Below, in pieces: positions 1 to 39,405 of a DNA stretch of 49,359 nucleotides. Position 1 is the stretch's first letter; every line of letters begins with the position of its first letter. Location of the stretch: IMG/VR virus record IMGVR_UViG_3300046690_000086, positions 1-49,359 of that record, one strand, 5' to 3'. A program made the position numbers and the translations under genes. The stretch comes from a virus. A model generated the notes under the pieces. It was given only the letters and a program-made list of their open reading frames with translations. It did no database searches and was not told the origin of the DNA.

Positions 1-348
1 TGAGCAGATGAATGCGACGGACTTCGTTATGACTCTCCCGCCCGGCTGTGTCTGAGCTGTCCCTAACTCCTTCAGAATCCCTTGGATAGAGCTTCTCCCA
101 GAGATGATTCGAGTCCCTCCAACTCCACGGACTAACTGCTTCGCTGCTGATATCGGTGGGCCTTTCTTCAGTCCGCTCTCTGCATGGAACATGCAATAAA
201 TGTTCGGGTAGAGGTTGTAGATTTGTCGGTCTATCCATACATTATCCTTTAAAACTGCTGAGATGGAGGCTAGATATGCCCAGAACCAGAAGTTAGTTGG
301 ACTTTCAAGTTCCGAATGTTGAGATAGAAATTTTTCCACCCACGTCAT
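1..348 (-). CDS. DUF3987-like ATPase, N-terminal fragment (allele A)
   Basis: This is the first 116 codons of a gene cut by the left window edge; the frame is open to base 1. The protein is about 92% identical to residues 1-116 of the complete gene at 47190-48467, and bases 1-84 are identical to 48120-48203. The fragment includes the degenerate Walker-A-like stretch AESGLKKGPP (residues 56-65). Its ATG (348-346) overlaps the HNH stop as UAAUG. If the molecule is circular, this fragment continues directly into base 48119 and is simply the start of that gene in the allele carrying the HNH insertion; the alternative is a genuine second partial copy. Role inferred from family and neighbours: replication-linked helicase/primase-type ATPase. 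Confidence 0.8.
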   Translation of the reverse strand, partial: MTWVEKFLSQHSELESPTNFWFWAYLASISAVLKDNVWIDRQIYNLYPNIYCMFHAESGLKKGPPISAAKQLVRGVGGTRIISGRSSIQGILKELGTAQTQPGGRVITKSVAFICS

Positions 349-788
349 TACTTCTTCTTTCTATATTTTGCTGATCTTAAATTGATGCATATTCTGCAAC
401 TTCTAGTACCTTCTTTACGATAGTAGGTATTTTCTTCAGTAAATTCATGCCCATTTTTACAATAAATTCTAACTATGTCTGCATTATTTTCCTTAGCTGT
501 ACCTACATAGAGATGTTCAGGATTCCAACATGCTCTACTCGGACATTCGGGCTTATGATTTGCTTGTAGTGAATCACTTAGTTCTAAAAAGAATATAGCA
601 GATAATCTATGGCAATTATACATTCTTCCATCATGCCATATTTGACCGTATCCCTCATTATTTAGTGAACCCTTCCATATTAAACAGTCGTTATTCCACA
701 ATGACTTCTGAAACATCCTCTCCAATAACTGTTTCCTCTCGCTTTCTATATTTTCGTAAGTCTTTATAATTGTCTCCGATCTCGACAT
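348..788 (-). CDS. HNH homing-type endonuclease
   Basis: HNH_3-type nuclease. Seen: an N-terminal CLIWKG motif, GYGQIW, NCHRLSAIF (first His), ANHKPECPSRACWNPEHL (catalytic NHK and the distal N-x-x-H), then a C-terminal zinc-like segment (CKNGHEFTEENTYY ... CRIC) common in phage HNH enzymes. Family role: site-specific DNA nicking or cutting that spreads the gene into alleles lacking it. It sits exactly between polymerase and the DUF3987-like gene, overlaps the polymerase 3' end out of frame, and its stop forms the same UAAUG that polymerase forms in allele B. The start is uncertain: ATG at 788 (146 aa) is used here; TTG 725 and ATG 716 (122 aa, SD GGAG 3 nt upstream) are alternatives. The first residues are read from polymerase-derived sequence, so they may not be native. 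Confidence 0.85.
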   Translation of the reverse strand: MSRSETIIKTYENIESERKQLLERMFQKSLWNNDCLIWKGSLNNEGYGQIWHDGRMYNCHRLSAIFFLELSDSLQANHKPECPSRACWNPEHLYVGTAKENNADIVRIYCKNGHEFTEENTYYRKEGTRSCRICINLRSAKYRKKK

Positions 789-3201
789 CGCAAGGTAGCT
801 TAAGAAGTCTACGGGGTAAGGAGCAGGTGTGGAAATCAATAGGTCTCTCCATTTCTTTTTTAGCCATTTCTACAAAGTCATCTAAATATTCTCTTCTCAC
901 ACTAAACAAAAGGGAATCATGGGCTTCGAGAATAATCTTTGCCCCAGGAAATTTCTTTTTAATTCTTATCCCCGCCGCTTTAGTGTTATCGGTTACAGCT
1001 CTCTGTGGAAGATACGCAAGAGCTTCTCTTTCAAGATCAGGCCCCATACGTTCGTAGAAGATGCGCACTCCACCATGAGGTGCATCTATTCCCCACGGTT
1101 TTGGCGCCACCAATCTTCTTTTACTTTTAATGGCTTCAATGACTTCAAAATGGAAGACTTTCTGGATGAGAGGCTGTCTTGTATGAAATATCTTAAGAGC
1201 ACGCTCTGCTTGAGCTTCTGTAATAGTAAGAGGAATTTTGAATTTGCGTGCTTGAGTGTTGACCTCTGTTGCTGCTCTCCTTTTTGAAGCACCAAGGTGT
1301 GCGGCGTGTCTGAGCGTCTTACCCGCGAATCTAATGGGACTTTCATATCCGAGTATTTTCTTTGAATAGTCATCTTCTACTCCTCCAAAGAACCATGATG
1401 CTGTCAATGCATGAAAATCATGTGTATCTATGTCCTCTAGTGCTTGTTCATCTGTAGCTAAGTTGAATATTACTCTCGCTTCGGCTTGAGATGAGTCCAG
1501 CTGGACGAAGACTTCTCCCTCATCAGGCTCATACATTCCTCGCACGTCCGACCCTATGTCTCCGTGCTTAGTGAAGACTTGGAACGCACAGCCCATAGGC
1601 TTCATGTCTACCTTACGTCCCTTTCCCTTGATGTCTACCAAGGGACGGATGGGAGGATCTTGCTGCCCTGTGGACGTGCGACCTGTCTCAAGACACATGA
1701 AGCAGGTAGTCCGCATCTTTCCATCGTAGTCTGTAAGTGCGAATAAGTAGGTAGAGAGGGTCTTCCTGACGCGCCTGCGTTCTAGAGCCTTCTCTATCCA
1801 CTCCCTGTAGGGCTGATACTTAACTCCGTTCTGTAAGTTGAGAAGTGCGGTTAGCTCCTCTTCGCCCGTCCCCTTTCTTCTCGGAAGTTTCCATATGTCA
1901 AAGAGGAGATTCGACACTTTCTCAGAGGAGTTTGGATTGACATCTACTCCTGCGAGTTGGAACATCTCATATCCGAGTCTCTCATCCCACTCTACATACT
2001 TTGTGATTAATTCGGCCCTTCGGGTCTCGTTGACTCGGAATCCATTATTCTCTATCTCCAGATAGAAGTCAGGTAGAGTCATCAGAAAGTTCTCGTAGAA
2101 CTTCCGCATCCCTAGTTCATCTAAGTCAGAGTCCATCGAGTCATTTACTTCATACGTGACACAAGCATCTCGTGCGCATCCGAGCAGGAGATCTCTATAG
2201 CTCCCCTCATACATGCCTTCGTCCTTGTAGAAGGGTTCTCTCGTATAAATGCTTGTATTAAATGCAAGCCCCTTCGGGAGTTCAGGGTTAATTGCAAAGG
2301 CTTTGAGCATCGTATCCGAATGTATTCTACGTATTGCAAATCCCAGTCTTCGTATTTTGTCTCTATCGTAATTGAAGTTGTGCCCAACAATGTCCTTCTC
2401 CCATAAAACTTTGGACAACATAAGCCACATGGATGCGAGGTCGGAGTCGGGTATCGTGGATATTCCGTCGCGGTTCCACAGAGGGACTGTCATTCCATGA
2501 TGTTTATTGAACGCAAGTCCGATGCAGATAGGGAGACAGTGTCCGCCTGCTTCGATGTCTACTGAGAGAGTCAGATGATGTTTGTATCTCTCCAGAAAGC
2601 CATGGAGTTCACCTGAGTTCTGGGCTATCTGTAACGTGCGGGAGGGAAGCTGTAGGATCGGACTGACAGACTCCTCAAGTGCGCGTTTGAAGTCGAAGAT
2701 TATTACCTGTCGATTCCAATACCCCTTGATCTCGCCACCTGAAAAACTATGTAGCAAGTGCGCGGGATGATAGGTAGGGACAAACTTCGTACCCATTCCC
2801 CACATGATTGATCCTCGGTGCTTAGAAATCTTAGTCTTCCCGCTGAGTGCCCATAAAGCAGTCCCACCGAGAGCGAGAATAACGTTGGGTCGAATATCAT
2901 TAATCTCAACTTGTAGTTCCTCTAATTGTTTATCTACGTTAATCCCGCTCGCAGTCGCGCGTTGGTAGAATGATTGACGCTTGGCTCCTATGTTCGGAGG
3001 GACTTCATACTTGCATACGTTCGTGACCCAGCAGTCTGCGCGAGAAATGCCCGCATCTTTGAGGAGCCTGTCTAATTCTCGTCCTGACGCACCTACGAAC
3101 GGGCGACCTGCTAATGTTTCTTCACGCGCGGGTGATTCGCCTAGAATCATGATTTTAGATGAAACAGAGCCGACGCCTGGGACATATTTATGCTCACTCA
3201 T
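691..3201 (-). CDS. Uracil-DNA glycosylase-like / family A DNA polymerase fusion (allele A)
   Basis: Replicative polymerase, 836 aa. Residues 1-165 are a family-4/5-type UDG domain: GESPA (21-25), GRPFVG (32-37), VTNVCK (59-64), HPAHLL (145-150); the usual N-terminal Fe-S CxxC is absent. Residues 205-360 are a DnaQ-like 3'-5' exonuclease: DIE (215-217), GHNFNYD (273-279), ARDACVTYE (343-351). Residues 380-810 are PolA: motif A LDSSQAEAR (568-576), motif B R624/K628 and motif C HDS (761-763), so both metal-binding Asp are present. The O-helix has His632 and Leu636 where Phe/Tyr and Tyr are usual. A UDG-like N-terminus on PolA is known from SPO1-type phages. The C-terminal tail differs from allele B because of the HNH insertion. 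The start ATG lies 2 bp after the upstream zinc-ribbon stop. Confidence 0.95.
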   Translation of the reverse strand: MSEHKYVPGVGSVSSKIMILGESPAREETLAGRPFVGASGRELDRLLKDAGISRADCWVTNVCKYEVPPNIGAKRQSFYQRATASGINVDKQLEELQVEINDIRPNVILALGGTALWALSGKTKISKHRGSIMWGMGTKFVPTYHPAHLLHSFSGGEIKGYWNRQVIIFDFKRALEESVSPILQLPSRTLQIAQNSGELHGFLERYKHHLTLSVDIEAGGHCLPICIGLAFNKHHGMTVPLWNRDGISTIPDSDLASMWLMLSKVLWEKDIVGHNFNYDRDKIRRLGFAIRRIHSDTMLKAFAINPELPKGLAFNTSIYTREPFYKDEGMYEGSYRDLLLGCARDACVTYEVNDSMDSDLDELGMRKFYENFLMTLPDFYLEIENNGFRVNETRRAELITKYVEWDERLGYEMFQLAGVDVNPNSSEKVSNLLFDIWKLPRRKGTGEEELTALLNLQNGVKYQPYREWIEKALERRRVRKTLSTYLFALTDYDGKMRTTCFMCLETGRTSTGQQDPPIRPLVDIKGKGRKVDMKPMGCAFQVFTKHGDIGSDVRGMYEPDEGEVFVQLDSSQAEARVIFNLATDEQALEDIDTHDFHALTASWFFGGVEDDYSKKILGYESPIRFAGKTLRHAAHLGASKRRAATEVNTQARKFKIPLTITEAQAERALKIFHTRQPLIQKVFHFEVIEAIKSKRRLVAPKPWGIDAPHGGVRIFYERMGPDLEREALAYLPQRAVTDNTKAAGIRIKKKFPGAKIILEAHDSLLFSVRREYLDDFVEMAKKEMERPIDFHTCSLPRRLLKLPCDVEIGDNYKDLRKYRKREETVIGEDVSEVIVE

Positions 3202-3203
3202 TT

Positions 3204-3317
3204 TTATTCTTTTAACTCGAAAGTTTTAGAACAGACATGACACAAGTATATCTTGCCCTTAATACGTTCTAGTAGGTCTTCTCTGTCATTCTTGCAATGT
3301 GGGCAGATTAGGTTCAT
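3204..3317 (-). CDS. 37-aa zinc-ribbon protein
   Basis: Small gene I translated directly. The product has two knuckles, CPHC near residue 5 and CHVC near residue 26, a typical rubredoxin-like zinc ribbon. It starts at ATG 3317-3315 inside the end of the cold-shock gene (32-nt overlap) with GAGAG just upstream, and its TAA sits just before the polymerase ATG. Its position between a cold-shock protein and polymerase suggests a nucleic-acid-binding accessory protein, but no specific function is known. Short length makes the call moderate, although two perfect CxxC pairs in a tight operon slot argue for a real gene. Confidence 0.7.
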   Translation of the reverse strand: MNLICPHCKNDREDLLERIKGKIYLCHVCSKTFELKE

Positions 3318-3570
3318 CTCTCTCGTTCCCTTCGACAGGACGTTCAATGACACGGATATGCATAGCTCTGTAGCCCTTACCGGGAATCTGTATTGGAGTG
3401 AACTCTACCATCATTCCTGTCTTAAATTTTAAGAAAGGGAGGGAGTCCTGTCTGATGGCACTCCAATGAAAGAATATGCGAGTAAATGGAATATCTTTAG
3501 AAGAGATGAATCCCCATCCAGTCCTACTCACTTGAATTACACGTCCTACGAGTCTAATGTGATCATTCAT
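3286..3570 (-). CDS. Cold-shock domain protein
   Basis: 94 aa. Residues about 5-70 resemble an OB-fold cold-shock domain: RVIQVSRTGWGFISS (RNP1-like GWGFI) and TRIFFHWSAI (RNP2-like FFHWS), followed by a basic strand and an acidic tail. Family role: binding single-stranded DNA or RNA and melting RNA structure. It is longer than CspA (about 70 aa). The leader upstream (3571-3737) contains two large hairpins, recalling the structured, temperature-sensitive 5' leaders of bacterial csp mRNAs; whether it is regulated this way is inference. It is immediately followed by the 37-aa zinc ribbon and the polymerase. A second cold-shock protein lies at 45111-45338. Confidence 0.85.
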   Translation of the reverse strand: MNDHIRLVGRVIQVSRTGWGFISSKDIPFTRIFFHWSAIRQDSLPFLKFKTGMMVEFTPIQIPGKGYRAMHIRVIERPVEGNERDEPNLPTLQE

Positions 3571-3590
3571 TTTTCTGGCCTACTAAAAGC

Positions 3591-3638
3591 GGGGGTATCT
3601 CCGTAATCTGACACTGGGTCAGTATTAGAGATACCCCC
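3591..3638 (-). terminator. Long hairpin, terminator-like, upstream of cold-shock gene
   Basis: GGGGGTATCTC (3591-3601) pairs perfectly with GAGATACCCCC (3628-3638). The loop itself contains CTGAC/GTCAG and TAAT/ATTA pairs, so the stem can extend to about 20 bp with small bulges. Read on the minus strand the stem is followed by GCTTTTAG, which resembles an intrinsic terminator or attenuator in front of the cold-shock gene. Confidence 0.6.
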
Positions 3639-3644
3639 TGTCAC

Positions 3645-3723
3645 TAGATGCGCGCGAACAGTTGTTCAACTTATGCCTAACTGCCCCGTAGGCAAGTTCT
3701 GGACTGACTGACGCGCGCATCTA
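3645..3723 (-). ncRNA. Structured leader with 12-bp closing stem
   Basis: TAGATGCGCGCG (3645-3656) pairs perfectly with CGCGCGCATCTA (3712-3723). Inside are two smaller hairpins, GAAC/GTTC (3656-3667) and TGCCTA/TAGGCA (3674-3694), giving a branched, cloverleaf-like fold. It lies between the acidic gene and the hairpin preceding the cold-shock gene. It lacks a tRNA consensus and may be an RNA switch, a processing site or a separate small RNA. Confidence 0.45.
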
Positions 3724-3737
3724 ATGAATCCCTCTAC

Positions 3738-3911
3738 TTACGACCCTTCAGTCTCTTCAGTCTCTTCAGTCTCTTCAGAGTCTTCTTCGTCTTCTGTTTC
3801 TTCGTCCTCATCATCTTCGAAGAGTTCTTCTTCCTCTTCCTCTTCTTCTTCTTCGTCTTCCTCAGGTTCCTCGACTTCTTCCGCCGGAAGTTCCAATTCT
3901 TCAGTCGTCAT
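3738..3911 (-). CDS. 57-aa hyperacidic protein
   Basis: By my count 39 of 57 residues are Asp or Glu and there is no Lys, Arg or His. The sequence is a run of Glu and Asp blocks ending in short TEE repeats. The start chosen is ATG 3911-3909, preceded by GGAGG four bases upstream; the open frame extends to a TTG at 4019 without a good RBS. Such charge is typical of DNA-mimic proteins (for example phage Ocr-type inhibitors) or acidic tails that bind SSB partners, but no family is recognised and the role is open. Flanked by weak terminators on both sides, so it may be expressed separately. Confidence 0.7.
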   Translation of the reverse strand: MTTEELELPAEEVEEPEEDEEEEEEEEEELFEDDEDEETEDEEDSEETEETEETEGS

Positions 3912-3972
3912 GATTCCTCCACAAGTTAAGACAGGTAAATTGAAAGAGAAAGGCTCGGTGGATGAGGCAAAA

Positions 3973-3992
3973 TACAGAGGGGAGACTCTGTA
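3973..3992 (-). terminator. Possible intrinsic terminator upstream of the acidic gene
   Basis: TACAGAG (3973-3979) pairs with CTCTGTA (3986-3992) around a 6-nt loop; on the minus strand it is followed by TTTTG. The stem is short, so termination would be weak. The 200-nt gap 3912-4111 shows no other gene. Confidence 0.35.
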
Positions 3993-4111
3993 CTCCCTGT
4001 CTATTCCGAGTGTATTCAACAGGCATCCACTTTACTTGTCTACCTCACATTTCTAGTACTCCTCACTTGGATGTAGGAGACGCATGAGATAGATCAAGTG
4101 CGACAAATAGA

Positions 4112-4510
4112 CTAGCCCTGATGGATCCGATACTTGTGATTGCACCTGTTCACGATGCGACCGTTATAGGTGTCGTTCTCGATGAATGCCTCGATCTTCT
4201 TTCCGACTGCGGAGTTCAGATCGTAGCGAACCTTGGACTGAAGTTCTACGCCCAAGCCACGCAGGAATGCCTTGATAAAGCCAGTTGCTCCGGGCTTATC
4301 GTTGAACTGAAGAACGATAGGGACGCCCGCGAAGTCTACAGATCCGTTGTCTGCATTCTTCTCGATGATGGTGTCGTAATGACAGTTGTTCGACTGCCCA
4401 TCTTTCGTCGGACTCCAAGTGCGATGGTTCTGGATGTTCAGGACGTACCACGCAGGTTCGACGACCGCGTCACGCTTCATGTCTTCGTCAGAGAACTGGA
4501 TGAAAGTCAT
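4112..4510 (-). CDS. DUF669-like single-stranded DNA-binding protein
   Basis: 132 aa. The pattern matches DUF669-type phage proteins: an early FSD segment, WYVLNIQNHRTW strand, then FNDKPGATGFIKAFLRGLG, and a late GKKIEAFIENDTYNGR-type strand pair with NRCNHKYR. These proteins are usually found beside a RecA-like ATPase and a Cas4-like nuclease and are thought to act as SSB-type factors in phage replication or recombination; here the next gene upstream is exactly such an ATPase. ATG 4510 has AGGAG nine bases upstream. Confidence is good for the family, moderate for the function. Confidence 0.75.
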   Translation of the reverse strand: MTFIQFSDEDMKRDAVVEPAWYVLNIQNHRTWSPTKDGQSNNCHYDTIIEKNADNGSVDFAGVPIVLQFNDKPGATGFIKAFLRGLGVELQSKVRYDLNSAVGKKIEAFIENDTYNGRIVNRCNHKYRIHQG

Positions 4511-4526
4511 GTGATGTGTCTCCTAG

Positions 4527-5339
4527 CTAGATCTGTGTTAGAGTCTGCGGTGAGAGTTTTGTCAGTGCGATGGCAGGTTTGATGTAGGTTTCGTATATAG
4601 GTTTGTCCTTAAATACGATCTCTTTATCCAACCCAAGTTCTGTCTTCGCGAAGTCATCTCCAGTGTGTGTTGTCAACAGAGAATAGTCACCTCCACTCCC
4701 TTCTATCATTCCTGACTTGATATTGAAGTGATAGATTTCACCACAATATGCAGGAATTTTAGCAGCTATGTTCTTTCCCGCAGTCACGATCTGACGCGAG
4801 ACATGAGTAGTCTTCTTCGTCGTATCTCGGTACTCAGCTTTGATGACGTGCGCGATGATGATGACATTAATCTTGTGATGTTTCTTGATGTCTTTCGTCA
4901 GAGAGATTAACTCACCAAGAGCGCCGGACTCAGCGTTGTAGTCCTCTATTTCATTGACTGCGATTCCTGCGATCAACTTACCCGCCGCTGCACCTGAAGT
5001 GCGTGTCTTTCCATACTTCAAGTGCGTAGTCTGACGGAGGATTGCATCTGCGCACGACGTGATAGAGTCTATGACGATAGTTTTGTAGGGACAGTTAGAC
5101 TGAAGTTGTTCCAACTTGACCTTAGCCTTAGTCCAGTCATCATAGTCATCATACGAGATAGTCTTAGGATCAATGTTCCATTTACGCATAGGGATGAAGA
5201 TGGATGACATCTTCTGATCCCATGAGAACCAGTATTGAGGGCCGGGAAATGATAAGGCTTGTGTAGACTTACGTGTCCCGGGTTCCCCCTTAAAGAGACA
5301 GTAAAGAGAGTCGAAGTTAATAGAGTTCATGTCCTGCAT
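4527..5339 (-). CDS. RecA-like/AAA_24 ATPase, phage recombination-replication type
   Basis: 270 aa. Walker A GEPGTRKST at residues 18-26 and Walker B TIVIDS at 87-92, followed by a Ser/Thr-rich sensor region and a HVIKAEYRD segment. This is the phage nucleotide-binding protein family related to Sak4/RecA core ATPases, which works on ssDNA with an SSB-like partner to promote annealing or replication restart. The partner is probably the adjacent DUF669-like gene. It starts at ATG 5339, two bases after the upstream stop. No inteins or frameshifts are seen. Confidence 0.85.
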   Translation of the reverse strand: MQDMNSINFDSLYCLFKGEPGTRKSTQALSFPGPQYWFSWDQKMSSIFIPMRKWNIDPKTISYDDYDDWTKAKVKLEQLQSNCPYKTIVIDSITSCADAILRQTTHLKYGKTRTSGAAAGKLIAGIAVNEIEDYNAESGALGELISLTKDIKKHHKINVIIIAHVIKAEYRDTTKKTTHVSRQIVTAGKNIAAKIPAYCGEIYHFNIKSGMIEGSGGDYSLLTTHTGDDFAKTELGLDKEIVFKDKPIYETYIKPAIALTKLSPQTLTQI

Positions 5340-5342
5340 TAG

Positions 5343-5591
5343 TTAGTTATCCTTGTCCTTATCGAGAGAGTCGAAGTCAAGGTTCATCTGGACAGGTTCG
5401 TCATGTGAACTGACTACTATGACGTATCCGACTATCTCCTCTGATGAGTGACTGTCCATCATGACAGGTTCTATCGAGATGTCTTCCATCAGTGTATCTT
5501 CTTCGTTGATAGTCACGAAGATAGGTTTCTTCAGTGCCTCGATAGGCAAGTCATGCAGGAGTGCGAGTAGTTCCTCAACAGATATCATCAT
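5343..5591 (-). CDS. Small acidic hypothetical protein
   Basis: 82 aa, rich in Asp and Glu, with an N-terminal amphipathic segment (VEELLALLHDLP) and a DFDSLDKDKD tail. It overlaps the upstream gene by four bases, with AGGATG before the double ATG, so it is translationally coupled. The form is that of many phage early proteins of unknown function. No motif identifies it. Confidence 0.6.
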   Translation of the reverse strand: MMISVEELLALLHDLPIEALKKPIFVTINEEDTLMEDISIEPVMMDSHSSEEIVGYVIVVSSHDEPVQMNLDFDSLDKDKDN

Positions 5592-5773
5592 CCTAATCCT
5601 CCCCTAGCTCCATTGTCTAGACTCTTTTTCGAGAACTTCCTCTTTTTCAAAGACTTCAGTTCTTTCAGCAGTGAGTGCGTGTCCTCGATGCGCGTCTCCA
5701 GTTCTCGGATATAGACGTTTAGTTGTAACTCAGTGTATGACGCGACGATAGAGAGTAGTTCCTCTTTAAACAT
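5588..5773 (-). CDS. Small coiled-coil hypothetical protein
   Basis: 61 aa. Residues about 10-50 form a likely coiled coil (leucine heptads in YIRELETRIEDTHSLLKEL) followed by a basic patch KKRKFSKK. It overlaps both neighbours by a few bases. No family recognised; the basic coiled coil could mediate oligomerisation or nucleic-acid contact. Confidence 0.55.
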   Translation of the reverse strand: MFKEELLSIVASYTELQLNVYIRELETRIEDTHSLLKELKSLKKRKFSKKSLDNGARGGLG

Positions 5774-5993
5774 CTGAATCCTTTTGTAGTAGGTACTTCA
5801 AAACAATTTCACTTCTCGCTTTGTCATTTGACTTCTCGTCTGGACACTCTTCGATGAGTGCGACTATGTCATGTTTGTAGGGAAACTCAATTTCATGCAT
5901 GTGTTCGAATGCTTCCGTAAGAGTGCGGAACTTTGCATTCTGTTTATGCAACTCACAACTGAGACAGACGAATGCGACCTTATTCTTGGACAT
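5766..5993 (-). CDS. Small zinc-finger-like hypothetical protein
   Basis: 75 aa. Residues 10-35 have CLSCELH then EAFEHMHE, giving a possible C2H2-type metal site (CxxC ... HxxxH-like spacing). The C-terminal half is helical and mixed-charge. ATG 5993 lies two bases from the stop of the upstream nuclease gene, so it belongs to the same operon as the Cas4-like nuclease. Function unknown. Confidence 0.6.
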   Translation of the reverse strand: MSKNKVAFVCLSCELHKQNAKFRTLTEAFEHMHEIEFPYKHDIVALIEECPDEKSNDKARSEIVLKYLLQKDSDV

Positions 5994-5995
5994 AG

Positions 5996-6961
5996 TTAGT
6001 CTTCCTTTTCCTTATTCCTAGGATCCCACATTGGGGCTAGTTGATATTCAGCTCTGAGTGTCTCTTCTCTCATGTTGGGGTCGGACTCACAGACTCTCTT
6101 GTATGGACACGGACCATACATATTGTCACATGAGGAGAAGTTAGGAGGCCAATAGCCGGACTCCTGATACTGGATATACTTGTAGGCGTAGTAAGGGATT
6201 ATCTCGGACTGCCACTCATGGATACGCGCGGCGGAGTAAGAGACTAACTCGCGGGTCAGTCGGTCAGGGACTTTCAGCGTCGTCTGTAGTCCGATCTTGT
6301 TCACTAGGACATTCCGAGAGTTGAGCAGGACACAGTGTCCTAAGAACTGATTCGATAGAGAAGTCTTGTCTCTCCTTTGTTTGAAGGTCTTGTGGTCCAT
6401 AGATATGATACCCGTCTGGTTCGTATCTATCCGCAGGTCTAGCTTAGCTTTCCATAGGACACGAAGTTCGTCATCCTCGTAGATTACTTCTCCTATGACT
6501 TCTTCTACTGAGAGAGGGATGAAGGAGTCATTCTGGTAGTGATTGAAATACTGTTCGCAGGTCTGAAGTGCGAATCTCCATCCGATTACATATCCTTCGG
6601 AGTTCTCAGGAGTATTAAAGAGGCCCGGATATTCCTCTGGATCATGTCCGCATGAGGGGACTGATGCGTCTTCTGACACGAAGGTTGCGCAGTGCTGACA
6701 GCCTGACACGAAGAGTTGACCCGCGACTAGTGCGTGTCCTATGGCTACGGAGTGAGTGAATCCATCTATCTTATGCTTGTAATAGACCTCTAAGACTTTA
6801 TGGATTAGAGATCCTACTTCGAGGGAGTTAGACTTCCCTTTCATAGCTACAAGACGATGGTTGAATCTTATGTCATGGTAACGTGCGCACGACATTAGAC
6901 CTGAAATAAGTGTAGCGTCGAAGATGACATTCTTCTTCGGAGGGAGAATGATGTCTGACAT
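5996..6961 (-). CDS. PD-(D/E)XK nuclease, Cas4/AddB-like with Fe-S cysteines
   Basis: 321 aa. Motifs in order: Cys25 (LMSCARY), the RecB-family VGSLIH-K (about 49-55), an Asp in WKAKLDLRI (about 170), and MDHKTFKQ with the catalytic Asp-x-Lys. The C-terminus has CDNMYGPCPYKRVC, three cysteines that with Cys25 would hold a 4Fe-4S cluster as in Cas4 and AddB. Family role: ssDNA or end-resecting exonuclease in recombination and replication. The start is ATG 6961, coupled to the stop of the 55-aa gene (UAAAAUG); a longer TTG start at 6979 would overlap that gene and is less likely. An additional Cys/His group (CQHCATF ... CGH, about 95-112) may be a second metal site. Confidence 0.88.
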   Translation of the reverse strand: MSDIILPPKKNVIFDATLISGLMSCARYHDIRFNHRLVAMKGKSNSLEVGSLIHKVLEVYYKHKIDGFTHSVAIGHALVAGQLFVSGCQHCATFVSEDASVPSCGHDPEEYPGLFNTPENSEGYVIGWRFALQTCEQYFNHYQNDSFIPLSVEEVIGEVIYEDDELRVLWKAKLDLRIDTNQTGIISMDHKTFKQRRDKTSLSNQFLGHCVLLNSRNVLVNKIGLQTTLKVPDRLTRELVSYSAARIHEWQSEIIPYYAYKYIQYQESGYWPPNFSSCDNMYGPCPYKRVCESDPNMREETLRAEYQLAPMWDPRNKEKED

Positions 6962-6962
6962 T

Positions 6963-7130
6963 TTATTCCATCTGTCCAATTACTGATTGGATTAACACCT
7001 TAATACGAGCGCATCTACGTTTCATTCTATCACTTACGTCTCTTCTTACGAAGTGAAGATAATCAGAGTCCCGTTCAAGACCTGCAACGAGTTCCCATAT
7101 TTCTTCCCACTCAGCTCTAGTTAATGACAT
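6963..7130 (-). CDS. 55-aa hypothetical protein
   Basis: Found by direct translation. It is a helical, charged protein with two tryptophans near the start (EWEEIWELVAG) and a basic segment RRDVSDRMKRRCAR. ATG 7130 follows the upstream stop by three bases, and its TAA is two bases from the nuclease ATG. Its tight fit between two genes supports it; function unknown. Confidence 0.65.
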   Translation of the reverse strand: MSLTRAEWEEIWELVAGLERDSDYLHFVRRDVSDRMKRRCARIKVLIQSVIGQME

Positions 7131-7133
7131 AAA

Positions 7134-7883
7134 TTACTCTGCGACCAGCTTTCTGAACTTCGCCAGTTTGGACTTGAGATTACTGTTCTCACGGACTGTG
7201 GAGATGTAGTAACTCCGCAGATCTTGCATTTCTTTGATGAGATGATCTAACATCTCGACTGCTACGTCATTATTCGGACTGGACGGAGAGACTGGACGGA
7301 CTGACCGGGCATGACGGACATGTGTAGGGATGGACTTCTTACGATGTTTAGATACGAAGATAGAGAGTGAGCCGAACGTAGTAGAGATGCCCAGTTCCTG
7401 TGCCTTCACGACAAGTGCGCGTGCGTTCTGTGAGTTGTTCTTCTGTTCGTCGATGAACGGTATGAGTGCGAACAACTTACGGAAGTTCTTGCTTCTCGTT
7501 CCAGTGAATGTGTCAGAATTCGGAGTCTCTGTCGTAGTAGTCATAGTCTGTATCTCTTCCTTAGTCTCTACTCGTGTTAGTTTGTGCATGTCTAGGAGTT
7601 CTTTGACCTGACGCGCGATTATTCCGGTTCCTTCGGGATTGAATATGGTGATCTGTCGCTTACGTGCTTCCTTTAGAATCGTGGCGAATGACGTGTGTCC
7701 TATCCATCTAGTCATGAAGACGACACGGACATTCTGTGGAAGGTCTTTGCCCTGCCAGTCTGTCTCCTGACTACTCCAGATTATGACTCGTGGGTTCTGA
7801 CGCAAGTCAATGTCGAAGTTACTAGCCTTAGCTCCGACGATTAGTATGTTTCCATGAGTTAAGGGCTGTAGTGAGTGTTCCAT
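7134..7883 (-). CDS. DUF2325-like Rossmann domain protein with C-terminal coiled coil
   Basis: 249 aa. Residues about 11-95 look like a DUF2325 domain: ILIVGAK strand, RVVFMTRWIGHTSF with a central His, then a helix (ILKEARKRQ) and a closing strand TIFNPEG. In that family the pattern is a Rossmann-like fold with strand-turn 'fvsHs' before a helix. Residues 110-200 are low-complexity/basic (Thr run, FRKLFALIPFI, KHRKK); residues 205-249 form a leucine coiled coil. DUF2325 proteins occur in bacteria and mobile elements without a settled function. The combination with a long basic linker suggests DNA association, which is inference. Confidence 0.55.
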   Translation of the reverse strand: MEHSLQPLTHGNILIVGAKASNFDIDLRQNPRVIIWSSQETDWQGKDLPQNVRVVFMTRWIGHTSFATILKEARKRQITIFNPEGTGIIARQVKELLDMHKLTRVETKEEIQTMTTTTETPNSDTFTGTRSKNFRKLFALIPFIDEQKNNSQNARALVVKAQELGISTTFGSLSIFVSKHRKKSIPTHVRHARSVRPVSPSSPNNDVAVEMLDHLIKEMQDLRSYYISTVRENSNLKSKLAKFRKLVAE

Positions 7884-7887
7884 AAAG

Positions 7888-8088
7888 TTAGTCCTTAGTC
7901 CTTGTATAGTTGAAACAGTTCGACAGTTCTAGACTTGAGATTCGTCGTTCGAGTTCTAGGACTTTCTCTCCGATACTCTTGACTGATTCGAGTATCATGC
8001 GTTCATTCTCCAGATGCAGGTTGGAGATTGAGGACAGAGCTTCTACGATACTCTTGATTAGTCCATCTACTGCTTCTCTTTCAGACAT
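7888..8088 (-). CDS. 66-aa coiled-coil hypothetical protein
   Basis: Start set at ATG 8088, which overlaps the upstream stop as UAAUG; a longer frame to 8169 would run far into the neighbour. Almost the whole protein is a predicted coiled coil (heptads such as ISNLHLENERMILESV and VLELERRISSLEL). It sits next to the DUF2325-like gene, whose C-terminus is also coiled coil, so an interaction is possible but unproven. Confidence 0.6.
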   Translation of the reverse strand: MSEREAVDGLIKSIVEALSSISNLHLENERMILESVKSIGEKVLELERRISSLELSNCFNYTRTKD

Positions 8089-8348
8089 TAGTTCACCTTC
8101 TTTCTGTTTCCATTTATGGATTCGATAGTTGGGAAGACTACTCCCTTTCCGTGGAGCCATTCGAAACATACACAGTCAAGTGCGTCTGTAATGATGACTC
8201 GTATTGTCGTACCTACTTGTGCTCCTACAGACATAGAGAGATAGTCTGCTGCATGCACAGCATCGTTTGCTGAGACGAAGTGACGGACACGCTCATATGA
8301 GCCGTCTTTGAAGAACTGATAGACGGAATATTCATTTTCATTCGTCAT
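8088..8348 (-). CDS. 86-aa hypothetical protein
   Basis: Start ATG 8348, inside the end of the upstream gene (11-nt overlap); stop overlaps the next start as UAAUG. The N-terminus (YSVYQFFKDGSYERV) resembles small phage proteins with one alpha-beta domain; a DALDCVCFEW segment is near the C-terminus. No known function. Confidence 0.6.
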   Translation of the reverse strand: MTNENEYSVYQFFKDGSYERVRHFVSANDAVHAADYLSMSVGAQVGTTIRVIITDALDCVCFEWLHGKGVVFPTIESINGNRKKVN

Positions 8349-8616
8349 GTTCTGAGTCCAGTTCTTTGATGCAGTCTGCGCACATCTGGAATGCAGGTCC
8401 AGTTTCACTGCCACATCTGCGACATTTAGTTTTGCAGGAAATTTCCATCACAATCTCGTATGTGACATCATTTACTTCCAGTTCTGGATGAGGACAATCA
8501 TGATTCCACTCATCATTGATATGTGCTTGAAAGTCCTCAGCCATATCCTTCAAATATTCCTGATTGGCAGTTGGATTGAAGTAGAGGCGATACTCAATGT
8601 ATAGTTTCTGTTCCAT
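8338..8616 (-). CDS. 92-aa protein with C-terminal zinc ribbon
   Basis: ATG 8616 overlaps the kinase stop as UAAUG. The N-terminal 55 residues are a beta-rich domain (YIEYRLYF, YEIVMEIS); the C-terminus has CKTKCRRCGSETG and MCADC, a clear zinc ribbon. Membership of the early operon suggests a regulatory or nucleic-acid-binding role. Function unknown. Confidence 0.65.
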   Translation of the reverse strand: MEQKLYIEYRLYFNPTANQEYLKDMAEDFQAHINDEWNHDCPHPELEVNDVTYEIVMEISCKTKCRRCGSETGPAFQMCADCIKELDSEHDE

Positions 8617-8990
8617 TACTGTTCCCACCTTTCACGCATTTTCTGAATAGTTTCTTCAGGGACTCCATGGATATTTGGAAAGAGTGGACCTGAGAGAGTG
8701 ACTTCGACTACACGATAGCCGTATTCAAGTGCGAGCTGAAGATAAGGCTTCATCTCCCATCGTTGAGTGAATGTGTTAGAGACTGCTATTCTGTCTACTT
8801 TATACTCCATGAGATGTTCTACGTTAGAACGACAGAACTGATGCGCTTCTGCTATCCTACCAGCGTTGTACTCATACTTTCCGTCATGAAGGAAGAAATC
8901 ATCTGCCTCACATACGGATGCTCGTAAATCAAGTGCGAGTGTAGACTTGCCTGAGCCGGGTAGTCCTCTGATTAAGAATAGAGTCTTCAC
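8616..8990 (-). CDS. P-loop kinase, polynucleotide-kinase/N4BP2-like
   Basis: 124 aa AAA_33-type P-loop protein. Walker A RGLPGSGKST at residues 8-17, an EADDFF acceptor-side motif (about 29-34), YEYNAGRIAEAHQFC, VSNTFT (about 70-75) and a C-terminal HGVPEETI with a late Arg. This order is characteristic of phage and eukaryotic N4BP2/PNK-like kinases that phosphorylate 5'-OH ends or small substrates. It could serve in end repair after host nuclease damage; the substrate is not shown by sequence. It overlaps the next gene upstream by four bases. Confidence 0.82.
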   Translation of the reverse strand: MKTLFLIRGLPGSGKSTLALDLRASVCEADDFFLHDGKYEYNAGRIAEAHQFCRSNVEHLMEYKVDRIAVSNTFTQRWEMKPYLQLALEYGYRVVEVTLSGPLFPNIHGVPEETIQKMRERWEQ

Positions 8991-9214
8991 TTCGAGTCCT
9001 TGTCTGAGTGCGTGATAAGAGAATGAAGGGGCACATTCCAGAAGCGAGAGCTATCAGCAGCACTAATACAAGAGCACCCCAACGGGAGATGTTGTCTGTG
9101 TCTCCTGTTGACATACGCATCTCTGATACGTTCTGCTTCTCTGAAGGTCTCGACTACTACTTCTGCGACGAGTGTGTCATACATTGCGATCTGTAGTCTG
9201 TGTCCTTTGGACAT
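8987..9214 (-). CDS. 75-aa hypothetical protein
   Basis: Starts MSKGHRLQIAMYDTL and has a charged helix (ETFREAERIRDAYVNRRHRQ) typical of small phage early proteins. It is coupled by a four-base overlap to the kinase downstream and lies one base from the upstream stop. Several other frames are open here, but this one fits the operon spacing. Function unknown. Confidence 0.5.
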   Translation of the reverse strand: MSKGHRLQIAMYDTLVAEVVVETFREAERIRDAYVNRRHRQHLPLGCSCISAADSSRFWNVPLHSLITHSDKDSK

Positions 9215-9215
9215 T

Positions 9216-9464
9216 TTAGTCTGTCTCCTCTTTCACTTTCGCTGTCCACTGAGATTCTTCTTGTACTAGCCATTCATTGTATTTGGATTGTAGTTCGGAC
9301 TCTGAGTAGTGTCGCGGATCTTCTGGTAGCCAGTCAAGGAATGCGTCGATACGTGCGCGTGCGTCATGATTTCCATCTTCCGAGAATACCGGACCAAACG
9401 CCCAATCAGTAGTGGAACAATACATACATGCAGTGTCATAATCACCAAGTATTCTAACGCCCAT
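9216..9464 (-). CDS. 82-aa hypothetical protein
   Basis: ATG 9464 is chosen because AGGAA lies seven bases upstream; a GTG at 9491 is the alternative. It contains CMYC (residues 12-15), WAFGPVF and an acidic amphipathic C-terminus. Single cysteine pair, so metal binding is uncertain. Function unknown. Confidence 0.55.
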   Translation of the reverse strand: MGVRILGDYDTACMYCSTTDWAFGPVFSEDGNHDARARIDAFLDWLPEDPRHYSESELQSKYNEWLVQEESQWTAKVKEETD

Positions 9465-9503
9465 AACATTATTCCTACTCTTAAGGCGCACAGCATAGAA
9501 GGA

Positions 9504-9620
9504 TTATTTCTTCTTAGATTTATAATCCTGCTGTATCGCATAGACGAATGTGACTACGATAAGATAACAGAAAACAAGTGACGCGATACCTGCCCAACCA
9601 CCTGCGATATACTCTTCCAT
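9504..9620 (-). CDS. 38-aa single-pass membrane protein
   Basis: Found by direct translation: a short acidic N-terminus, one hydrophobic helix (about residues 9-29, AGIASLVFCYLIVVTFVYAI) and a lysine-rich tail. ATG 9620 has AGGA five bases upstream. It is the first gene after the helicase and its hairpin. Small membrane proteins in early phage operons can act in superinfection exclusion or host takeover; that is inference only. Confidence 0.6.
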   Translation of the reverse strand: MEEYIAGGWAGIASLVFCYLIVVTFVYAIQQDYKSKKK

Positions 9621-9661
9621 CTGTCCTGTATCCCTTTCTTGTCTGAAGTAAGTGTCCAATT

Positions 9662-9694
9662 GAGCCTATCAATCCGCGGTAGACTGATAGGCTC
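9662..9694 (-). terminator. Intergenic hairpin after the helicase gene
   Basis: GAGCCTATCA (9662-9671) pairs perfectly with TGATAGGCTC (9685-9694), loop 13 nt. It lies between the SprT-SNF2 gene and the 38-aa membrane protein. No T-run follows on the minus strand, so it could be a rho-dependent pause, an mRNA-processing stem or a weak attenuator. Confidence 0.45.
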
Positions 9695-9717
9695 TCAGGA
9701 GACTGACTCCCTACTCC

Positions 9718-11844
9718 CTACTTGCGACCTTTCTTGGCGTTGTGGGCGTTGACGATAGATGCTGCTAGCTCTTTCATGATGGCATCTTCGTTCCAGACTT
9801 CAGCCTCTCCCTTGTTCATGAGGGAGTGGAATCTAGACCGCTTGCCTTCGATGATCGCATCTAGCTTCGGGTCTGTCGTAGTTAGCCCCTCTAAGTGCGC
9901 GTAGATGGCGTTAACTGATACAGATACGGCTCCGATGCGAATGAAACGTCCTTCACACTGTTCTTCCTTGCCGGGATTCCACTGTCTCTCATGCATGAGG
10001 CAGTCGCAGCAGGTTTGGAGGTTCATTCCTTCACCTAATGCTAACTGTGAGCCGACTAGTAGTGCGCGTGGGGACTGGTTGAACTTATCGCACGTTTCGT
10101 TACGCGCGAATGAATTCATGTCTGCTGTGTATTGCAGGACTGGCATGTCATTGCCATACTTCTGTTTTAGTTCTTCGAAGAGGATGGCTTGCACGTCTCT
10201 GTGATGCGCGAAGATAACCAGCTTTCTGTCTGTCTCTTCGACAAATTCATCGACGTATTCTAGTGTCGCAGGGACTTTAGCGAGTGCGACTAGATGACGC
10301 ATCTTTTGCATGGCTGCTATGATAGCCATGCCTGACAGAGCCTGAGCCTGAGATTCGTACCACTTCACGAACTCATCGACTGCTGCATCATAGTCCTGCT
10401 CCTCTTGAGGAGTCATCATGATGTTCAGCTTAGTGCGATTGACTGTCGGCAGTTCTGCGAGGACTTCACGACGTTCACGTCTGACGCAGATATCCTTCGT
10501 GTATTCTTTGAAAGCGTTGATCTTATGACGTTTGATTCCGCCTTCTTTCAGGAACTGACCCTGATAGAAATACTCTACCCAATCGCGCTTGAACTTCTCC
10601 TCTGATGGAAACTTCATAGGATCCATCATGTTGAAGACTGGGAATAGTTCTGAGCCGCGATTGTTCCACGGCGTCCCCGAAAGTGCGATTACCTTACGTC
10701 CCTTCACGATACGACGGACCATCTGCGTCCTAGATGAGTCAACATTCTTTATCTGCTGACATTCGTCAAGGACTACACACTTAATTCCGACTCTATCGAA
10801 CTGTGAGATATCGAAGCCAGATGAGACAACCTTGCCGGACTTGAGTGTCCGTGACTTCTGGACTAGCATGTCATAGCCGATGATGTAGTGCTTCAGTCCC
10901 GGCCAGAGATAATCCTTCGATGTGTTGACTATCTGTGGGATATGCTGTGCATTCTTCGGATCAGGGTTCATCCAGTTCAGGATTACACTGGACTTCTGAT
11001 ACTTAAGGCCGGACTTGTCTATCCACAAGATAGGCCAGAGGGATGGAGTGAAATATACGACTCCGGCAGCTTGTATCGTCTTGCCTAGTCCCATCTCATC
11101 GAAGCATGCCGCGCCTTTGTTGACAGCTAGACCTGCCTCAAGGAACTTCATTCCTTCTATTTGGAAGTCGTAGGGACGATAGCGTGAGCAGAGGACACAC
11201 TTGTTCTTGTTCCACTTATGCTTGCATGAGTCGGAGCCGCCTACGTGGAACGTATGGAACGGTGTTCCCTTAGGGACATTGGTTACGATCTTATGTCCGC
11301 ATTCGAGCATTGCGATATGCAGGTCAGGTTCTGTATCTCCGAGTGTTCGTATCGTCTCTTCGGAGATCTTGACCGCGACCTTTCCGCAGGTGGGACACTT
11401 CTCTTGTAGGCGGGTGATGTTGTACTTAGGTGTCCGGACTATCTGTTCTTCGAATGCGATAGGGACTTGAATGACTTTCTCGTCGAAAGTTATCTCGACG
11501 TCTGCCCCTGACCGAATCGCATCTATGACGCGCGGATCTAATGAGAGGTTAGAGCAGGGAGCCGTATGCGTGCAACCTAACTCTTTAGCCTTTTGGATCC
11601 AGACCTCATCGTGTGCATGACCCGGTGTCAGGGCATGAGCTATCTCATGCCTAACGGTGTTGTGGACATCCTCGACCGGATGTATGTCGATGTGATGTGC
11701 GGAGATGATGATTGCTCTGTCTCTGTGTGAGCAGAGACCAAGGAATCGAGAGTTAGAGTCTTGATTCAGACGTGCGGACCAATCTTGCAGCCCATGTCTG
11801 TTCATCTCTTCTCTCATGAATTGTGTTGCTGAACTTCTGTCCAT
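9718..11844 (-). CDS. SprT-like metalloprotease fused to SNF2-type helicase
   Basis: 708 aa. Residues 1-95 form a SprT/Spartan-like domain: HEIAH at 66-70 and the GHAHDEVW follow-on at 75-82, supplying the zinc ligands. Residues 145-220 contain CPTC, ECGH and CKHKWNKNKCVLC, a zinc-ribbon linker. From about 224 a superfamily-2 SNF2 helicase follows: RPYDFQ (Q-like), MGLGKT (251-256), DECQ in place of DEAH (360-363), SGTPWNNR (389-396) and a late QCEGRFIR motif VI with GEGMNLQ motif V. Likely role: removal or remodelling of proteins on DNA during replication or transcription. It has the TCCGAAAGGAC leader seven bases before its ATG. Confidence 0.9.
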   Translation of the reverse strand: MDRSSATQFMREEMNRHGLQDWSARLNQDSNSRFLGLCSHRDRAIIISAHHIDIHPVEDVHNTVRHEIAHALTPGHAHDEVWIQKAKELGCTHTAPCSNLSLDPRVIDAIRSGADVEITFDEKVIQVPIAFEEQIVRTPKYNITRLQEKCPTCGKVAVKISEETIRTLGDTEPDLHIAMLECGHKIVTNVPKGTPFHTFHVGGSDSCKHKWNKNKCVLCSRYRPYDFQIEGMKFLEAGLAVNKGAACFDEMGLGKTIQAAGVVYFTPSLWPILWIDKSGLKYQKSSVILNWMNPDPKNAQHIPQIVNTSKDYLWPGLKHYIIGYDMLVQKSRTLKSGKVVSSGFDISQFDRVGIKCVVLDECQQIKNVDSSRTQMVRRIVKGRKVIALSGTPWNNRGSELFPVFNMMDPMKFPSEEKFKRDWVEYFYQGQFLKEGGIKRHKINAFKEYTKDICVRRERREVLAELPTVNRTKLNIMMTPQEEQDYDAAVDEFVKWYESQAQALSGMAIIAAMQKMRHLVALAKVPATLEYVDEFVEETDRKLVIFAHHRDVQAILFEELKQKYGNDMPVLQYTADMNSFARNETCDKFNQSPRALLVGSQLALGEGMNLQTCCDCLMHERQWNPGKEEQCEGRFIRIGAVSVSVNAIYAHLEGLTTTDPKLDAIIEGKRSRFHSLMNKGEAEVWNEDAIMKELAASIVNAHNAKKGRK

Positions 11845-28112: not shown

Positions 28113-29363
28113 ATGGCGGTCGTGGAAAGTCAAGTTGCAGCTACAGAACTGGAAAAGGTCATTGACAAGGTTCAGTTGGTGTTTGAACGTGATGACAAGT
28201 TCTATGCAAACATCAAGAAGAGACAGGTGGAGAAGATCTCTCATAGGCAGATGCGGGTTCCTTTGGAACTTAGGCCGGGTGGGAGTTTTCAGTATTTCAA
28301 TCCTGATGGTGGAGATCTGGGACGCGGTGGCGGGCCTACCTTCGATAAGGCAGTACTCAATAGCGTGTTTCTGAGTGAGAACATTGAGTATACGAAGCTG
28401 ACTCAGTGGGCGACAGATGATGCGCGGAAGGCTATCATCAACTCGGTGAGACGACTGACTGCAACCGCACTTGACGAGATGAGGCGTCAGCTGGATTCGC
28501 AGATGATGCAGACGGGTGATGGCGTCATTGGAGTCGTGACTACAGATACTCCTGCTGGTGGGAGTAATGTCATTACGCTGACGACCGACGGATTCGGCGC
28601 GCGACTGATGAGGTTTGGACAGACTGTCCAGATCTGGGATGCGAACCTTGCAATTAACAGGGGTTCAGGGACTATCTCGCAGTATGATGTGGAGAATAAG
28701 ACTATCAGCATTACTCCACAGATTGCTGCCGTCGCGCCTACAGATAAGATCGTCACTGCGGGTCTTTCTGCTCCTGCATCTTTGCCTGCTCTGTTTGGAG
28801 TTCCATATCATCACTCTAACGCAAGCACGGGTACATGGCTCGGCTTCAGCAGGAGTACGACTCCTGAGATTCGTGCAAGCCGTGTGAATGGTGGGGGCGC
28901 GGCTATGACGCTTCCTCTTCCTCGTATTGCGATGAACAAGATCTCCAACAGGGTGGGAATTGATAACAGTGTCAATCCTACTGCATGGTTGCATCCTTGT
29001 CAGATGCAGGCATATGAGGAAATCGGTCAGCTCGTAAGTATTATTCAGAAGACCACGAAAGAGGAAGGTCTGAATATGTACTTCGGGAATAACATGCAAC
29101 TCGCAGGTGCGAGCATGAAGGCCAGCAATAACTGGGATAAGACTCGTATTGACTTCATCGTAGATGAGACGTGGGGTCGCGCTGAGATCCTTCCCATCGG
29201 ATTCTACACGACTGATGGACGGAAGATCTTCGAGATCCGTGGTGCGTCTGGTGGTGTCGCAACTGCGGAGATCTTCTACATGGTGGTTGGGATGCAGACA
29301 TTCGTCAATAACCCTGCATCATGTGCGTACATCGACAACTTGGCAGTCCCTGTCGGATACTAG
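28113..29363 (+). CDS. Major capsid protein
   Basis: 416 aa from ATG 28113, which has GAGGG seven bases upstream; a longer TTG start at 28095 overlaps the scaffold and is unlikely. It follows scaffold and precedes decoration-like genes. An N-terminal helix (VIDKVQLVFERDD), QVEKISHRQM and GGSFQYFNPDGGDLGRGG, then a beta-rich middle, fit a HK97-fold coat of P22/N4-like type. Forms the icosahedral head. Confidence 0.85.
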   Translation: MAVVESQVAATELEKVIDKVQLVFERDDKFYANIKKRQVEKISHRQMRVPLELRPGGSFQYFNPDGGDLGRGGGPTFDKAVLNSVFLSENIEYTKLTQWATDDARKAIINSVRRLTATALDEMRRQLDSQMMQTGDGVIGVVTTDTPAGGSNVITLTTDGFGARLMRFGQTVQIWDANLAINRGSGTISQYDVENKTISITPQIAAVAPTDKIVTAGLSAPASLPALFGVPYHHSNASTGTWLGFSRSTTPEIRASRVNGGGAAMTLPLPRIAMNKISNRVGIDNSVNPTAWLHPCQMQAYEEIGQLVSIIQKTTKEEGLNMYFGNNMQLAGASMKASNNWDKTRIDFIVDETWGRAEILPIGFYTTDGRKIFEIRGASGGVATAEIFYMVVGMQTFVNNPASCAYIDNLAVPVGY

Positions 29364-29372
29364 GAGGAAAAA

Positions 29373-29672
29373 ATGGCGATTACAGCATCTGACTGGGCAG
29401 CTCTGAGTCCAACGAATGGTGTCGCAGCTACTACACTTGTGTCGGCCGCGACCATTGCACCTACGACATTCCTGACTGTCTTGACAGGTAATACGGCTGT
29501 CACTGCAATTACTCCGCCTGTAACGCATGGACATATGCTGGCGATTGTCTTTGCGGGTACGGCTGGAATCACTGCGGGGAATAACATCAATAACACGAAG
29601 GCTTCTGTCGCTGGTGAGGCTATGTTGCTGGTGTATAATCCGACTTCAGGTAAGTACGCGGCTGTCGGTTAG
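29373..29672 (+). CDS. 99-aa decoration-like protein
   Basis: A beta-strand-rich Ala/Thr/Val protein: TFLTVLTGNTAVTAITPP, HMLAIVFAGTAGITAG, AMLLVYNPTSGKY. The ending resembles the paralogue at 29766-30056. AGGAGGAAAAA precedes ATG 29373. Position after the capsid gene suggests a head decoration or stabilising protein. Function inferred. Confidence 0.65.
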   Translation: MAITASDWAALSPTNGVAATTLVSAATIAPTTFLTVLTGNTAVTAITPPVTHGHMLAIVFAGTAGITAGNNINNTKASVAGEAMLLVYNPTSGKYAAVG

Positions 29673-29674
29673 TG

Positions 29675-29737
29675 ATGAGTGGATGTTAGCTGGGACTGCT
29701 GCATAATTCTGTGTGGGAGAAGTTAGCATCCACTCAT
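29675..29737 (+). other. 11-bp inverted repeat between capsid-linked genes
   Basis: ATGAGTGGATG (29675-29685) pairs with CATCCACTCAT (29727-29737) across a 41-nt loop. There is no T-run. May be an attenuator or a processing site separating capsid-related transcripts. Confidence 0.45.
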
Positions 29738-29765
29738 TACGTCATCTCATGGTGGAGGAGGCGAG

Positions 29766-30056
29766 ATGATTCCAGGTATTACGACGAAGCTGAGTGAAAG
29801 TACACTCGCAAGTGCGACAAGTATCAGTCCTAAAACTGATATTGTGAAGGTAACAGGATCAACTACAATCAACACTATCGTCCCTACATTCGGTGGGGGA
29901 TTTGGTGGATTTGTGATTCTGATTCCGACTGATGGGGCGATTACGATTGGAACATCAGGGAATATTCTGGTGGGTCTGGCTGCTGCTCAGAATAGAGCTT
30001 TGATGTTGATCTTCGTTCGTTCATTGGGTAAGTGGATTCTGGAAAACGGAGTCTAG
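29766..30056 (+). CDS. 96-aa decoration-like paralogue
   Basis: Same design as the 99-aa gene before: TDIVKVTGSTTINTIVP, GGFVILIPTDGAITIGTSGNI, ALMLIFVRSLGKW. GGAGGCGAG precedes the ATG. Likely a second decoration or stabilisation protein; the glycine-rich loop (GGGFGGF) is a difference. Confidence 0.62.
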   Translation: MIPGITTKLSESTLASATSISPKTDIVKVTGSTTINTIVPTFGGGFGGFVILIPTDGAITIGTSGNILVGLAAAQNRALMLIFVRSLGKWILENGV

Positions 30057-30062
30057 CTAGAG

Positions 30063-30608
30063 ATGGAGACAATTGAAACTCTGAATCAGAGACTTGTGGA
30101 CTACTACGGACTGGATTCTAACACTGGAAGACCGATGTTCAGAATCGTGTTCGCAGATGATGAGACAGAGAAGAGACTCGTCAGTGAGACTCCTTCAGGG
30201 TTTCAATTGTTGACTCCTATCGTCGCTGAAGTCAAGAAATACCCCTACTTGAAGGGACTCTACGTCTTGGAACGACTCGTGATAGTTCCTGAGATGAACT
30301 CCAAAGACCTACCGACTCAGAAGTTGAGTTATGAGCCAATTTGGGCGTATAGAGATGACATGAATGGACCTATTCCGCCCGTATGGAGTGCGACTAAGTT
30401 CATTGTGGACTCTCTATACGCTGCACTTGGAAAGAGAAGTATGAGGAAATACGTGGAAAGTGAGAAAGAGACGACTCCTGAAGGACGGGATCAGAGAATT
30501 GATGAACTGAAAGAGGAATTATTTGGAAATGAGACAGATACGTGTGATGCATTGAGATACAAAGAGGGAATTGTCGTGCCGAGTAACTATAAAAAGGAGA
30601 TGAACTAA
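30063..30608 (+). CDS. 181-aa hypothetical protein
   Basis: A mixed alpha-beta protein with MFRIVFADDETEKRL, YPYLKGLYVLERLV and WSATKFIVDSLYAAL. Such proteins commonly lie between capsid and adaptor genes of podoviruses. UAAUG-coupled to the Acb2-family gene. Function unknown. Confidence 0.6.
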   Translation: METIETLNQRLVDYYGLDSNTGRPMFRIVFADDETEKRLVSETPSGFQLLTPIVAEVKKYPYLKGLYVLERLVIVPEMNSKDLPTQKLSYEPIWAYRDDMNGPIPPVWSATKFIVDSLYAALGKRSMRKYVESEKETTPEGRDQRIDELKEELFGNETDTCDALRYKEGIVVPSNYKKEMN

Positions 30609-31503: not shown

Positions 31504-31511
31504 GAGAATGT

Positions 31512-31730: not shown

Positions 31731-31731
31731 C

Positions 31732-31953: not shown

Positions 31954-31965
31954 CGGAGACAAGAC

Positions 31966-32667: not shown

Positions 32668-32668
32668 G

Positions 32669-34837: not shown

Positions 34838-34841
34838 CGAA

Positions 34842-35144: not shown

Positions 35145-35150
35145 ATAAAT

Positions 35151-38014: not shown

Positions 38015-38022
38015 GAGGAAAA

Positions 38023-38175: not shown

Positions 38176-38188
38176 GAGGAGGACAGAA

Positions 38189-39403: not shown

Positions 39404-39405
39404 TC

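Follow-up and report, generated by a model that had tools for sequence, protein, structure and literature searches.

The contig IMGVR_UViG_3300046690_000086, an uncultured phage sequence of 49,359 nt (the window, which here means the whole of that stretch), starts and finishes with segments that are nearly the same at their edges and clearly different in between, raising the question of what such look-alike but differing ends represent. An earlier note on this DNA had read them as two alleles of one locus. This was borne out, but the note overlooked that the alleles are an occupied and an empty site for an HNH endonuclease gene.

Contig ends and the circular map

When the window was compared with itself, 48120-48203 proved to be an exact copy of 1-84 (0 mismatches in 84), in agreement with the earlier note, followed by 65 mismatches in 267 positions between 85-351 and 48204-48470. 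Overall identity between 758-1610 and 48507-49359 is 75.4%, and at the end of this stretch 132 of 134 positions are identical between 1477-1610 and 49226-49359, the two mismatches lying at 1558 and 1576. The near-match that had been described between 49240-49359 and 1488-1608 does exist, though its correct partner is 1491-1610. The divergent tract is bounded by bases 85 and 1476 and is 1,392 bp long in the allele at the start of the window (allele A) and 1,022 bp in the one at its end (allele B); the tail, 48120-49359, has no equivalent of 352-757, which is most of the HNH gene. The blocks that bound the tract, and the gene that runs across the seam, are as follows:

1-84: shared block, left, inside the primase gene
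1477-1610: shared block, right
47190-48119, minus strand: remainder of the primase/DUF3987 gene, which runs on into 1-348 (allele A) or 48120-48467 (allele B)
48120-48203: second copy of the left shared block
49226-49359: second copy of the right shared block, which ends with the contig

Chance or generally conserved sequence at the joins could be ruled out, since relatives are merely 62-77% (84-bp block) and 64-82% (135-bp block) identical there at the nucleotide level; the near-identity of the two copies in these blocks thus reflects shared recent ancestry or exchange. Elsewhere, the shared block turned up in one contig alone, IMGVR_UViG_3300046459_000079 (L004, also G001), an independent 29 kb assembly from another metagenome. 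This contig continues unbroken through the seam from 48119 to 1, matching window positions 29766-48119 plus 1-9394 over 27,748 aligned bases with 0 gaps and 19 mismatches, none of them inside the A tract or the HNH gene. Six longer relatives have the same gene order, circularly permuted and broken at differing points, and three of these six have exact terminal overlaps of 123-127 bp, as is typical of circular assembly graphs. The polymerase locus is single in all 29 longer relatives; 28 of them give a single hit, and the two hits in the 29th, G027, are one split polymerase.

Joining 48119 to 1 yields one intact primase-like (DUF3987) gene of 425 aa, as had been predicted along with a unit of about 48.1 kb. 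From the continuity of L004, the permuted relatives and the single polymerase locus it follows that the tail re-reads the contig start: one map unit measures 48,119 bp, and the tail represents a second allele, or second reading of the start, with no duplication. Circularity and the presence of two alleles are well supported, and the wrap-around and two-allele part, taken by itself, leaves very little room for doubt. The circular map, however, fits a circular molecule and a circularly permuted linear molecule alike; of the circular genome claimed previously, it is the map that stands, on the strength of the L004/G001 seam and the permuted relatives, while the two forms of molecule are not told apart.

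Occupied and empty alleles

In allele A (1-1610), an HNH-endonuclease gene lies between the polymerase and primase genes, so that the site is occupied, while allele B (48120-49359) has a compact, empty junction where the polymerase stop overlaps the primase start (TAATG):

85-347, minus strand: allele A, primase side of the tract (primase aa 1-88), identical in L004
348-788, minus strand: free-standing HNH/His-Me endonuclease gene, in allele A alone
691-3201, minus strand: family A DNA polymerase of allele A, 836 aa (Pfam DNA_pol_A, 3e-23; UDG, 5e-24)
789-1476, minus strand: allele A, polymerase side of the tract (polymerase aa ~575 to the C-terminus)
48204-49225, minus strand: allele B tract, with the empty TAATG junction, primase N-terminus and polymerase C-terminus
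48467-49354, minus strand: C-terminal 295 aa of the allele B polymerase, truncated by the contig end

The polymerase parts of the two tracts have 82% amino acid identity, with pS 0.82 and pN 0.15, and the primase parts have pS 0.77 and pN 0.09. The high divergence reported earlier is thus confirmed, though its figure of about 20% of polymerase residues becomes 18%. With synonymous sites saturated and few protein changes, a pattern of purifying selection, both alleles look functional. Just outside the tract the copies are 98.5-100% identical, though relatives reach only 62-82% there, and the tract edge is, judging from these comparisons, a recombination edge rather than the product of gradual divergence. 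What the contig holds is one backbone with two alleles of one recombined tract of ~1.4 kb. The two phage strains of the earlier note survive as two alleles, but not as generally diverged strains, given the sharp tract and its near-identical flanks.

The HNH ORF, which would reach 839 if a TTG start were used, begins inside the 3' end of the polymerase gene, and its stop overlaps the primase ATG (TAATG). Its 146-aa product matches HNH endonuclease families in PHROGs (best 3e-27) and, at a sub-threshold E of 0.0024, the Pfam family zf-His_Me_endon (PF05551), the zinc-binding loop of His-Me homing endonucleases. Residues H60, H78, C82, C87, H92, C110, H114, C131 and C134 are invariant in six relatives; the putative catalytic His/Asn-His residues and zinc-binding Cys/His residues are conserved. 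The predicted structure (pLDDT 82.6) has as its best fold match the homing endonuclease I-PpoI, a weak one (E 0.017, TM ~0.29), and a PDB sequence search with the protein returned nothing credible. The gene lies in neither an intron nor an intein, both neighbouring ORFs being intact; an intron was ruled out since the polymerase and primase ORFs are uninterrupted and an Rfam search for an intron at the locus gave no match.

The kinship of the two alleles was examined by regressing tract identity on flank identity in 58 close relatives. Allele B lies near expectation (residual -1.1) and allele A is an outlier (-6.3; taxon SD 1.5), as is L041, equally strongly, in the same regression. The trees place the backbone with L025, L005, L006, L007 and L114, allele B with L006/L007, and allele A, with moderate support (0.82), with L014. 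Since B agrees with the backbone in its kinship and A is both an outlier and grouped elsewhere, A looks like an import and B like the native version, although the long branch of A calls for caution. No close donor of the A tract was found, the best protein identity outside L004 being 81%. Allele B was detected in no other contig of the collection, and its exact DNA nowhere else in viral contigs; its right flank is visible for 134 bp. A search for similar DNA in the phage collection found none.

Three other origins for such ends were weighed. A true tandem duplication of the polymerase/primase region in one genome, later diverged, would agree with the contig as written, which has both copies, in tandem around the circle, but the contig ends cut both copies in mid-gene and the flanking blocks are near-identical yet the interiors saturated; with one copy in L004 and a single polymerase locus in the longer relatives, it was rejected as scarcely conceivable. 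That the contig does switch haplotype would equally be expected of an assembly chimera, in which unrelated phages are joined via a short conserved sequence. The joining blocks, however, are not conserved in relatives, and the A side was assembled independently elsewhere with the same flanks, making a chimera distinctly improbable. Terminal heterozygotes are known in T4, and headful packaging with a terminal redundancy of ~1.2 kb, recombination during a mixed infection having left the two ends with different alleles, would be consistent with the circularly permuted map. A short-read consensus of permuted molecules would nevertheless have no fixed ends, L004 has no terminus here, and both contig ends fall at the blocks of near-identity, as expected of a bubble in an assembly graph; this origin is considered highly improbable.

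Under the two-allele reading, both alleles would be present in the sample on one backbone, forming a bubble on a circular assembly graph. The contig path would enter the bubble with A, make one full turn (1-48119), follow B for 1,240 bp and stop where B rejoins A and the alleles are almost indistinguishable; the B backbone would then be near-identical past 49359 as well. This is like the assembly-derived terminal overlap of circular phage contigs, whose ends repeat through the circular graph, except that here the ends carry two alleles, and an exact-repeat circularity test picks up only the 84-bp block on one side and nothing on the other.

Other sites of the same architecture

Polymerase followed by primase on the same strand is the gene order in ~128 related loci, and the junction is compact in 46 of 88. 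Within the close clade, no fewer than five lineages (L004, L033, L039, L113 and L119) have an HNH gene there. L012 and L029 have there a small non-HNH gene of ~76 aa, with a DNVNHPTHY-like or DNVNHPAHY-like start, and L016/L021 and several distant relatives have other small genes; this variety indicates that the junction is open to cargo genes in general. Between 8200 and 10533 there is almost no difference between L113 and L119; they then diverge around the junction, where they carry two different HNH genes at the same site, identity returning 156 bp into the primase gene.

A second locus, and two small patches that differ from L004, were found in the window:

1990-2029, minus strand: 40-bp micro-patch in the polymerase gene, 7 differences
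29299-29765, plus strand: second locus, unoccupied in the window; in the near-identical G001 the stop of the capsid gene is immediately followed by an HNH gene
48096-48107, minus strand: 12-bp micro-patch, 6 differences, all synonymous in the primase gene (codons read by hand)

At the capsid locus of G001 the diverged flanks extend ~65 bp before and ~400 bp after the HNH gene (L086 355-1268 compared with window 29364-29765), identity being restored at 29766, and the gene that follows has 66% protein identity to its window counterpart. Divergent flanks within a near-identical backbone were seen in three cases (window A/B, the G001 capsid locus and L113/L119), and occupied, empty or replaced states at two loci, with occupied and empty alleles in close relatives.

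Divergent tracts are not exclusive to HNH genes, an idea that was rejected because near-identical relatives commonly differ in patches that contain no HNH gene; most are at most a few hundred bp, with one of ~0.8-0.9 kb. Of the 19 positions at which the window and G001 differ across 27.7 kb, 13 fall in the two micro-patches, which suggest very short recombination patches near the tract.

Several further features were observed. In the window polymerase (691-3201), a uracil-DNA-glycosylase-like domain is fused to the N-terminal side of the family A polymerase, and 9718-11844 encode a SNF2-type helicase and an N-terminal SprT-like domain in one protein. In L142 (~10078-10313; also in L141) and L137 (~9042-10001), the polymerase is divided between two ORFs, the break falling immediately ahead of motif A, at the equivalent of aa 559/562 of the window polymerase. 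In L142 the first half closes with ...MYIPG-stop, the second starts anew at MAEIFVQADS and a single small ORF separates them, and L137 has several small ORFs at the split; Rfam detected no intron at the split polymerases, and all three look like a naturally split family A polymerase. A host search in bacterial genomes gave only a distant polymerase relative, with 23% identity.

Probable homing and the exchange of replication genes

The free-standing endonuclease genes of T4 lie between essential genes, overlap the upstream gene or show UAAUG coupling, and are copied across together with their flanks; in relatives without the HNH gene, their products cleave at sites hundreds or thousands of bases away from where the gene itself is inserted (PMC2988022). 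The gene in allele A is like those of T4 SegF, SegG and MobE in being free-standing between essential genes on the strand shared with its neighbours, in its overlap with the upstream ORF and UAAUG-type coupling, in its presence or absence in close relatives and in the replacement of its flanks; T4 segD, which adjoins capsid gene 23, may be compared with the G001 HNH gene that follows the capsid gene (PMC2988022). It is unlike SegF, SegG and MobE in encoding an HNH/His-Me protein, in belonging to uncultured phages where it is known from sequence, and in having a tract diverged to synonymous saturation. Phage HNH genes are often near polymerase genes and have been tied to allele exchange, homing endonuclease genes (HEGs) lying at exchange boundaries (Barth et al. 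2023; PMC10448857). The present case shares with that study both the exchange of alleles and the position near DNA polymerase genes, which holds for 29% of their IPA-HNH class. Their HEG islands, however, exceed 10 kb and are from sequenced phages, while here ~1.4 kb around one gene is involved, and both alleles come from a single metagenomic contig. Skunavirus HNH endonucleases likewise vary in presence and location among close relatives (PMC12724721), though these are I-HmuI-like and come with marker-exclusion tests, whereas the present case is one of sequence comparison alone. All that was observed fits the homing scheme of T4 and of Barth et al.

In the proposed history, a diverged relative would have been the donor of the HNH gene and its flanks. 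During a mixed infection the nuclease would cut the empty genome, and repair would copy the HNH gene with its neighbours, so that ~1.4 kb would be replaced by intronless homing and co-conversion. The two-allele circular reading together with HNH-associated import is considered probable. Active homing as the driver of the exchange, with the HNH protein presumed to be an active nuclease, is favoured with less confidence: patches without an HNH gene also occur, so nuclease-driven conversion is not singled out by the tract itself. Because such patches are common, ordinary homologous recombination between co-infecting diverged phages could have swapped the polymerase/primase segment with the HNH gene as a passenger, leaving the two-allele wrap unchanged. 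Their frequency between near-identical relatives, the two window micro-patches included, speaks for this alternative, but the same junction is occupied repeatedly, and all three examined sites of HNH presence/absence or replacement lie inside long divergent tracts that flank both sides; a mere passenger role appears rather unlikely. Homing in turn might be extended to the view that an HNH gene at this junction repeatedly drives the swap of the catalytic C-terminal part of the polymerase and the N-terminus of the primase, in versions diverged to saturation, but this is offered as a tentative and somewhat doubtful proposal.

Most likely, then, the window captures, as it happened in nature, a gene invasion of a type already known, in which ~1.4 kb of adjoining DNA was replaced. 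Where the two ends of a contig resemble each other without being the same, they can represent a single locus of a circular map in two allelic versions, and what sets them apart can flag a mobile gene; in samples with mixed strains, a complete phage genome can also go unrecognised by a test for exact repeats. The window provides a probable homing site from natural populations in both its occupied and its empty state, and with the allele B tract, of ~1.0 kb, a defined candidate cleavage target. Here the catalytic domain of the polymerase would have been exchanged along with a selfish gene. If HNH genes at the junction do drive such swaps repeatedly, homing would be an ongoing engine of replication-gene diversification in these phages, seen as A/B bubbles in metagenomic assemblies.
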